A program made the position numbers and the translations under genes. Source: Salinigranum marinum (GTDB lineage: Archaea > Halobacteriota > Halobacteria > Halobacteriales > Haloferacaceae). Taken from it: a stretch of 64,000 nucleotides of DNA. The stretch covers positions 3,531,398-3,595,397 of the forward strand of contig NZ_CP100461.1 in NCBI RefSeq assembly GCF_024228675.1, read 5' to 3'. Positions 48,978-52,942 of the stretch are shown in pieces (position 1 is the stretch's first letter; every line of letters starts with the position of its first letter). Below the pieces are notes generated by a model. It was not told where the DNA came from. It did not search any database and saw nothing but the letters and a program-made list of their open reading frames with translations.

Positions 48978-49128
48978 AGTATGATTTCGAATACCTGACT
49001 TTTTGTAAATACTTACCGGATACATCTCTGCCGAGGAGGTCGCTCAGCGGAACGCTGGGGGTGCGCGACGGGGATCAGCGCCCGACACCGTCTCGCGAGA
49101 GGCGCATGGACTGAACGAAGTGAAGGAC

Positions 49129-49190
49129 ATGCGCCGTCCGGGAATTGAACCACGGTCGCTCACTCCGTTCGCTCTCTGATTCAATTCCCG
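49129..49190. repeat. Palindrome with a copy of the tRNA-Gly 3' end
   Basis: The 23-nt segment at 49129-49151 repeats the tRNA-Gly 3' end (49227-49249) perfectly in the same orientation. It includes CGGGAATTGAA (49139-49149), which pairs with TTCAATTCCCG at 49180-49190 across a GAGCG-type core. The layout matches the element after tRNA-Ser. It could be an integration footprint or a haloarchaeal repeat built from T-arm sequence. Confidence 0.65.
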
Positions 49191-49228
49191 AGAGTGCATC
49201 CGCCCGTCACGTCCGTTCCTCGCAGGAT

Positions 49229-49298
49229 GCGCCGTCCGGGAATTGAACCCGGGCTATTGGCTTGGGAAGCCAATGTCCTACCACTGGACCAACGGCGC
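49229..49298 (-). tRNA. tRNA-Gly (anticodon CCC)
   Basis: Read on the minus strand, the 70-nt cloverleaf has a 7-bp acceptor stem (GCGCCGT/ACGGCGC), a D arm with AGTGGTA, the anticodon loop TTCCCAA (anticodon CCC) between TTGGC and GCCAA, and the T arm CCGGGTTCAATTCCCGG. No CCA is encoded and no intron is present. A minus-strand AT-rich stretch (CTATTTTCAAG, about 49335-49345) may be its promoter. It is followed by a palindrome carrying a copy of its 3' end. Confidence 0.96.
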
Positions 49299-52503: not shown

Positions 52504-52575
52504 GCCTGGGTAGCTTAGCGGTAAAGCGCGTCCTTGGTAAGGACGAGAGCCCGGGTTCAAATCCCGGCCTAGGCT
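52504..52575 (+). tRNA. tRNA-Thr (anticodon GGT)
   Basis: The 72-nt cloverleaf has acceptor GCCTGGG/CCTAGGC with discriminator T52575, a D arm with TTAGCGGTAAAG, the loop TTGGTAA (anticodon GGT) between GTCC and GGAC, and the T arm CCGGGTTCAAATCCCGG. No CCA encoded, no intron. A CCTAAAGAC stretch about 30 nt upstream may be its promoter. Confidence 0.96.
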
Positions 52576-52701: not shown

Positions 52702-52785
52702 GGTGGGATGGCGGAGTGGACTATCGCGCCTGCCTTGAAAGCAGGTGGCCCTACGGCCTCCTGGGTTCAAATCCCAGTCCCACCG
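52702..52785 (+). tRNA. tRNA-Ser (anticodon TGA)
   Basis: The 84-nt gene has a perfect 7-bp acceptor (GGTGGGA/TCCCACC), discriminator G52785, the loop CTTGAAA (anticodon TGA) between CCTGC and GCAGG, a long variable arm (TGGCCCTACGGCC) as expected for tRNA-Ser, and the T arm CTGGGTTCAAATCCCAG. A CTTAGACAC stretch about 35 nt upstream may be the promoter. Its 3' end is partly duplicated at 52921-52942. Confidence 0.96.
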
Positions 52786-52850
52786 CGTTCTGTCGCGAAT
52801 CAGCGGCGCGGAGCTCCGTCTCCGCGCACTCGTGAGCGACTGTCGTGAAG

Positions 52851-52942
52851 ACGACTGGAGTTGAACCCTGTCGGTCGCAGCGCCCGAGCGGAGCGGGGGC
52901 GACCGTCGGACTCCGGTTCGAACCCCAGTCGTACCGCGTTCT
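52851..52942. repeat. Palindrome with a copy of the tRNA-Ser 3' end
   Basis: The left arm ACGACTGGAGTTGAAC (52851-52866) pairs with GTTCGAACCCCAGTCGT (52916-52932), with an inner pair GGTCGC (52873-52878) and GCGACC (52899-52904). The right part (52921-52942) matches the tRNA-Ser 3' end and flank (52770-52791) in 19 of 22 positions and same orientation. The order, inverted arm, GAGCG-type core, direct tRNA-end copy, is the same as after tRNA-Gly. Confidence 0.65.

Follow-up and report, generated by a model that had tools for sequence, protein, structure and literature searches.

Why should the DNA behind a tRNA gene repeat, as a palindrome, the 3' end of that very gene? The question is raised by a 64,000-nucleotide stretch (the window, G000:C1:3531398-3595397) of a 4.9-Mb haloarchaeal genome (G000), in which a tRNA-Gly(CCC) and a tRNA-Ser(TGA) gene are each followed by such an element (Table 1). 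Read in the direction of the tRNA, a unit begins with a trailer hairpin (H1), continues with an inverted T-arm copy (I) and a structured core, and ends in a direct copy of the tRNA tail (D). Most units are gene-less and about 60-190 nt long. A first-pass annotation had described the far copy at tRNA-Gly as perfect, which it is, and had reported a less exact one at tRNA-Ser, which indeed lies where it had been placed, with inverted arms (52851-52862/52921-52932) matching at 92%. The motif CGTTCT follows both tRNA-Ser and its D copy, and the GAGCG and GCGACCGT motifs singled out earlier are found in both window elements. We aligned units of two structural types, A and B, and built them into covariance models, R1 and R2, respectively. 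The two window elements differ in core type, since the tRNA-Gly unit is type A (R1 match at G000:C1:3580533-3580590 (-), E 1.7e-12) and the tRNA-Ser unit is type B (R2 match at G000:C1:3584249-3584327 (+), E 2.2e-20). Among Rfam covariance models, nothing scored above the gathering score at these elements except the tRNAs themselves.

Table 1. Positions in the window of the two tail-copying elements, their anchor genes, and adjacent features.
Feature	Position	Strand	Basis
tRNA-Gly(CCC), anchor gene	49228..49298	-	ARAGORN and Rfam RF00005; nt 54-73 duplicated downstream
Trailer hairpin (H1), tRNA-Gly unit	49191..49227	-	Own unit 1 vs. G001 unit 2, identity 0.89/0.94
I, inverted T-arm copy, tRNA-Gly unit	49177..49190	-	Repeat search; 93% complementary to 49139-49152
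Type A core, AGAGAGCGAACGGAGTGAGCGACCGTGG region, tRNA-Gly unit	49150..49176	-	Covariance model R1
D, direct copy of tRNA-Gly nt 54-73	49130..49149	-	49129-49151 = 49227-49249, 23/23
Second hairpin, opposite polarity; acceptor-derived stem GGCGCATG...CATGCGCC, loop GAACGAAGTGA	49101..49135	+	Sequence and fold
tRNA-Thr(GGT)	52504-52575	+	ARAGORN and Rfam
tRNA-Ser(TGA), anchor gene	52702-52785/6	+	ARAGORN and Rfam
Trailer hairpin (H1), tRNA-Ser unit	52786..52850	+	Equals sequence after first D in G001 (0.87) and G003 (0.82)
I, inverted T-arm copy, tRNA-Ser unit	52851..52866	+	Repeat search
Type B core, tRNA-Ser unit	52867..52916	+	Covariance model R2
D, direct copy of tRNA-Ser nt 54-73	52917..52936	+	52915-52942 vs. 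52764-52791, 24/28

Such copies are a general feature of tRNA 3' ends in this genome. We sampled the surroundings of the 49 tRNA genes listed by Rfam (n = 45 after a tRNA-like cluster and one duplicate had been dropped) and queried 350-nt flanks with the last 20 nt of each tRNA, at a score of at least 13. An own copy was found within 350 nt downstream for 15/45 tRNAs and upstream for 0/45, while foreign tRNA tails reached this score in 7 of 1980 trials. Chance similarity is ruled out by this enrichment, which is both own-tRNA and downstream-only. The own tRNA was the best query in every case in this genome. When a 24-nt query was run over ~19 kb downstream of ~40 tRNAs (those of the window excluded), 20 of the 26 copies fell within the first 350 bp. 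Three of the six distant copies, at 11-12 kb, resemble the far borders of integrated elements, one of which has an integrase gene. A fourth is a hairpin unit situated immediately past the far border of such an element.

Matches to the core models also lie behind tRNA genes. All 10 R1 matches in the genome lie behind tRNAs and, in samples from across Halobacteriales, 39/40 and 29/30 matches are on the same strand behind a tRNA gene predicted by ARAGORN (minus-strand loci were judged by hand). One exception (L420) sits behind a tRNA-like gene that ARAGORN missed, and the other (L373) behind a truncated tRNA-Gly tail resembling the far border of an integrated element, so that each of the 70 matches checked has a tRNA gene, or the displaced tail of one, upstream of it. 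An apparent R2 orphan in the genome proved to lie behind a tRNA-Pro(CGG) gene, which is predicted by ARAGORN (L254:14853-14925, about G000:C1:3490452-3490524) and absent from the whole-genome Rfam list of tRNAs.

The family is widespread within a narrow taxonomic range. An 18-mer from the type A core is present in 28/40 relatives, its reversed control being nearly absent. It occurs in 112 stretches of the GTDB collection and, among the 80 stretches listed, nearly all are from Halobacteria. These 80 loci hold 86 matches to the 18-mer, 74 of which have a tRNA upstream, and the remainder are mostly locus edges, missed or degenerate tRNAs, or chance bacterial matches. R1 identified units in 68/79 Halobacteriales genomes (60/64 among those of good quality), and R2 in 18/19 Halobacteriales and, weakly, in 1/101 other genomes of the phylum. 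Within the phylum, the family is thus essentially limited to Halobacteriales, where the core is found with at least 15 tRNA isotypes. These findings confirm in related genomes the enrichment near tRNA 3' ends expected of a repeat class linked to them.

What exactly is copied was determined using 122 pairs of a tRNA and its first copy. The duplicated stretch starts at T54, on the 5' edge of the T loop, and stops at the discriminator N73, the mature 3' end, without CCA. Identity is 0.98 at nt 54 and ~0.99 at nt 59-69, and falls to background on either side (0.25-0.47 at nt 49-51, ~0.35 beyond +6); since pairs were selected by their match over nt 54-73, the inner identity is inflated, but the drop at the edges is not affected. 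Because the copies lack CCA, they do not derive from mature tRNA, and reverse transcription of mature tRNA was rejected as their source. The duplication leaves out the 5' strand of the T stem, whose place the core occupies. Loop lengths between I and D are quantized at 32, 40, and 51 nt. Read on the tRNA-sense strand, the core alternates short Watson-Crick segments with purine-purine mismatches (GA/GA) and has GAA-like loops; on the opposite strand, pyrimidine mismatches would stand at the same places. In type B, 95.2% of cells are paired, against 15-45% in slid controls, and two-sided changes number 37, against 11 in shuffled alignments. These findings show that the structure of the unit is under constraint.

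Which molecule is constrained is a separate matter. The hairpins might be structured RNA trailers, transcribed with the tRNA and aiding 3'-end formation, termination, or protection, with stems under RNA selection and arrays made by unequal crossing-over. Units do sit directly behind tRNAs, and the covariation, a conserved G.T/G.U wobble in type A, and the sense-strand bias in folding would suit RNA as well as single-stranded DNA. Sense minus antisense fold energy averages -2.04 kcal/mol, against -0.67 in shuffles, so the bias is due in part to composition and in part not, and it fits an RNA hairpin equally well. We nevertheless consider RNA trailers rather unlikely because 1) units are missing behind more than half of the tRNAs of the genome and at many orthologous tRNA-Gly loci, 2) orthologous loci carry different core types, 3) D retains nt 66-73, which an RNA hairpin does not need, 4) G-U pairs are rare in type B (7/336 cells), and 5) unequal crossing-over is not expected to give a sharp T54 edge.

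Comparison of orthologous loci revealed turnover. Behind the tRNA-Gly(CCC) gene linked to nadE, which has a type A unit in the window, relative G001 has a B followed by an A, G003 has another A, and no unit is present in G002; farther out among the relatives, the units are A, B, or C-like or are absent. The single unit at this locus corresponds to the second unit of G001, where H1 recurs after the first D copy, and the unshared G001 unit adjoins the tRNA. Likewise, H1 of the tRNA-Ser(TGA) unit corresponds to what G001 and G003 have behind their first copy, and H1 behind tRNA-Pro(TGG) to what G003 has behind its first copy (0.93-0.96), the unshared unit again being tRNA-proximal in both cases. 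For these identities (Table 1), the baseline between unrelated units is mostly 0.55-0.75. Tandem units may also be near-identical, as behind tRNA-Gly(TCC) of G001 (0.98/1.00), or identical or near-identical, as at a locus with three units of 108 bp (L168). Since related species differ in their units and, in the clear comparisons, any additional unit adjoins the tRNA, the units look like a mobile cassette system that lands at tRNA genes, although the proximal extra units could instead reflect losses in the other species. Units are likely to be mobile, and we infer that mobility causes the turnover.

The turnover also bears on the three readings offered by the first-pass annotation. A repeat class tied to tRNA ends holds up, and so do integrase target footprints, insofar as the T54-N73 boundaries and the turnover between congeners support a site-specific integration process. 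RNA 3'-processing decoys do not, because many orthologous tRNAs have no unit behind them while others have one, and because the copies have neither CCA nor the 5' acceptor strand.

Footprints of integration might be scars, that is, related viruses or plasmids that integrated at tRNAs and were then deleted down to their two ends, leaving an attL trailer and an attR hairpin. Duplication of a tRNA tail is the classic att signature, and integrase-bearing elements are present at the same tRNAs, one of 11.8 kb at tRNA-Tyr and one of about 3 kb at tRNA-Val (L129). The former (L251, G000:C1:950000-969500) encodes a 347-aa tyrosine integrase. Immediately past its far border is a hairpin unit, so the element arrived between the tRNA and the array; its att core is ~13-15 nt at the acceptor end, and the hairpin unit has been displaced outward by it, which argues against scars. 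So do the quantized sizes and complete hairpins of the units, unlike what random deletions would leave, and no full-size parent with H1 and core as its ends was found. A viral or plasmid attP source was rejected, since a scan of viral contigs for the core word gave only three matches, none with a hairpin or a tRNA; blastn against phage and plasmid sequences returned short bacterial matches only. Scars are therefore an unlikely origin.

Genes between the copies are rare. A DUF433/DUF5615 (PIN-like) gene pair identified by Pfam lies between tRNA-tail copies at L124. At L217, a small gene pair between such copies, to which Pfam gave no match, resembles by eye a PIN-like toxin-antitoxin pair, and at L176 a 244-aa ORF, perhaps between copies, resembles by eye a metallo-beta-lactamase-fold protein. 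Ordinary integrated elements lie between tRNA and array or within the array at L129 and L180. Since genes within arrays are rare and other large gaps are integrated elements, we do not claim gene capture, and gene cassettes as a rule were rejected on the same grounds (L129, L180, and L251).

Other tRNA-related repeats were observed. A second class of hairpins, of opposite strand polarity, consists of an inverted acceptor-end copy, a hairpin rich in TC (in GA on the complementary strand), and a direct copy limited to about nt 61-73. It is found in the genome behind tRNA-Ala(CGC) (L040) and tRNA-Arg(TCT) (L038), and at L314, L313, and L193. The window hairpin of opposite polarity that overlaps the end of D at tRNA-Gly probably belongs to it. 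Behind tRNA-Arg(CCT) (L223), there are several tandem partial tRNA-tail copies, 2 nt apart, with no hairpins between them. At L051 (G000:C1:279000-284000), up to seven unusual tRNA-like genes lie together, several of them poor in quality, in what resembles a tRNA array of a virus or plasmid.

Taken together, our analysis points to gene-less, integron-like cassettes of about 75-190 bp that would be inserted site-specifically at the T loop of tRNA genes and stacked in arrays by a trans-acting recombinase working on a folded strand, a reading to which we give a probability of about 0.5. A cassette would insert into the T loop, bringing a copy of nt 54-73; because the incoming cassette supplies this stretch, the tRNA would stay intact, and the old tail (D) would be pushed downstream. 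The other end of the cassette would be a foldback site comprising the inverted T arm (I), the conserved structured core, and the T loop. When the tRNA-sense strand folds, I and D may pair into a double-stranded recombination site, as in attC of integrons. The anatomy of the units is that of a tyrosine-recombinase site, with the 7-bp T loop as overlap and the T stems as arms. A putative tyrosine-type recombinase provided in trans would exchange strands at the 7-nt T loop (TTCRAAT), and exchange at this point would let new cassettes enter beside the tRNA. We infer the recombinase, the folded-strand chemistry, and the direction of change, insertion or loss. The genome has 15 PF00589 genes, none of which could be linked to the arrays.

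An enzyme-free process might produce a similar layout. The T-arm palindrome could drive template switching, by which the tRNA end would be copied in inverted and in direct orientation and then amplified. Template switching can leave a foldback plus a direct copy and would account for I matching the same tRNA, but it does not explain a core conserved across many tRNAs and genera with compensatory changes, nor the confinement to Halobacteriales or the fixed T54-N73 edges, and we regard it as improbable. Where upstream and downstream copies differ, I (located without reference to the upstream copy) agrees with the upstream copy in 19 cases and with the downstream copy in 9, which is predicted by the insertion of cassettes, although decay of D would by itself produce the same; at L033, agreement favors the downstream copy. 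One observation argues against cassette insertion: a cassette from one tRNA entering another would damage the acceptor stem of the latter, yet the core occurs with at least 15 tRNA isotypes. Going further, haloarchaea might possess an integron-like system of their own, with tRNA T loops as landing sites, folded single strands as substrates, and a dedicated recombinase shared across the order, which we put forward only tentatively.

Whatever their mechanism, these units form a repeat family with integron-like anatomy, tied to tRNAs, that most genomes of this well-studied order of archaea carry. If mobile, they would 1) add, outside IntI integrons, a second example of cassette recombination guided by structure, 2) account for a source of variation beside tRNA genes, and 3) perhaps provide landing pads for haloviruses. 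In annotation, it would be unsafe to read every apparent att site behind a haloarchaeal tRNA as the scar of a virus, since many may have another origin. In the searchable open-access literature, we found no earlier description of the units, which therefore appear undescribed there, although this is weak evidence of novelty.

The attC box consensus is RYYYAAC/GTTRRRY. The T-loop box of the units is GTTCRAAT, with a nearly invariant C at position 4 that does not fit GTTRRRY, and the IntI integron integrase (TIGR02249) was over cut-off in 0/40 genomes. With neither IntI nor the attC consensus, and with few genes in their arrays, the units are not integrons, and integrons proper were rejected. With integrons (attI, attC, and IntI, including the archaeal ones; PMC9668308) they have in common arrays at one anchor in which the units next to it look newer, imperfect foldback sites whose ends are conserved, whose middle varies, and of which one strand folds better, and framing by copies of the crossover region. 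Unlike integrons, they are anchored at a tRNA gene that each unit site matches, nearly always gene-less, and confined to Halobacteriales. Archaeal integrons have been reported from metagenome-assembled genomes of nine phyla, and neither "Halobacter" nor "tRNA" occurs in the main text of that report (PMC9668308).

Other known systems resemble the units in part. Like haloarchaeal MITEs and the palindrome-associated elements of Haloquadratum (PATEs; PMC3119063), they are short, noncoding, and palindromic. PATEs, however, are related to IS605-type transposons (PMC3119063), whereas the units are linked to tRNA tails, which they duplicate; and unlike a MITE with terminal inverted repeats and target site duplication, they have no constant, target-independent inverted ends, since I and D follow the host tRNA. 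An array that grows beside a leader-like end while a short repeat is duplicated, as in CRISPR arrays and casposon target sites, would look similar, but the inserts here are a conserved structured family rather than unique spacers, and no cas genes are implicated. As in the integrative elements that archaeal tyrosine recombinases target to tRNA 3' ends (reviewed in PMC8371274), the tRNA 3' end is duplicated at both borders, the duplicated tail restores the gene, and the T loop is the likely overlap. Unlike those elements (PMC8371274), the units are ~100 bp long, stack in tandem, carry no integrase or other gene, and have a T54 edge and a foldback beside the distal copy. A unit of this size is too short to encode an integrase of its own, and the enzyme could act in trans.
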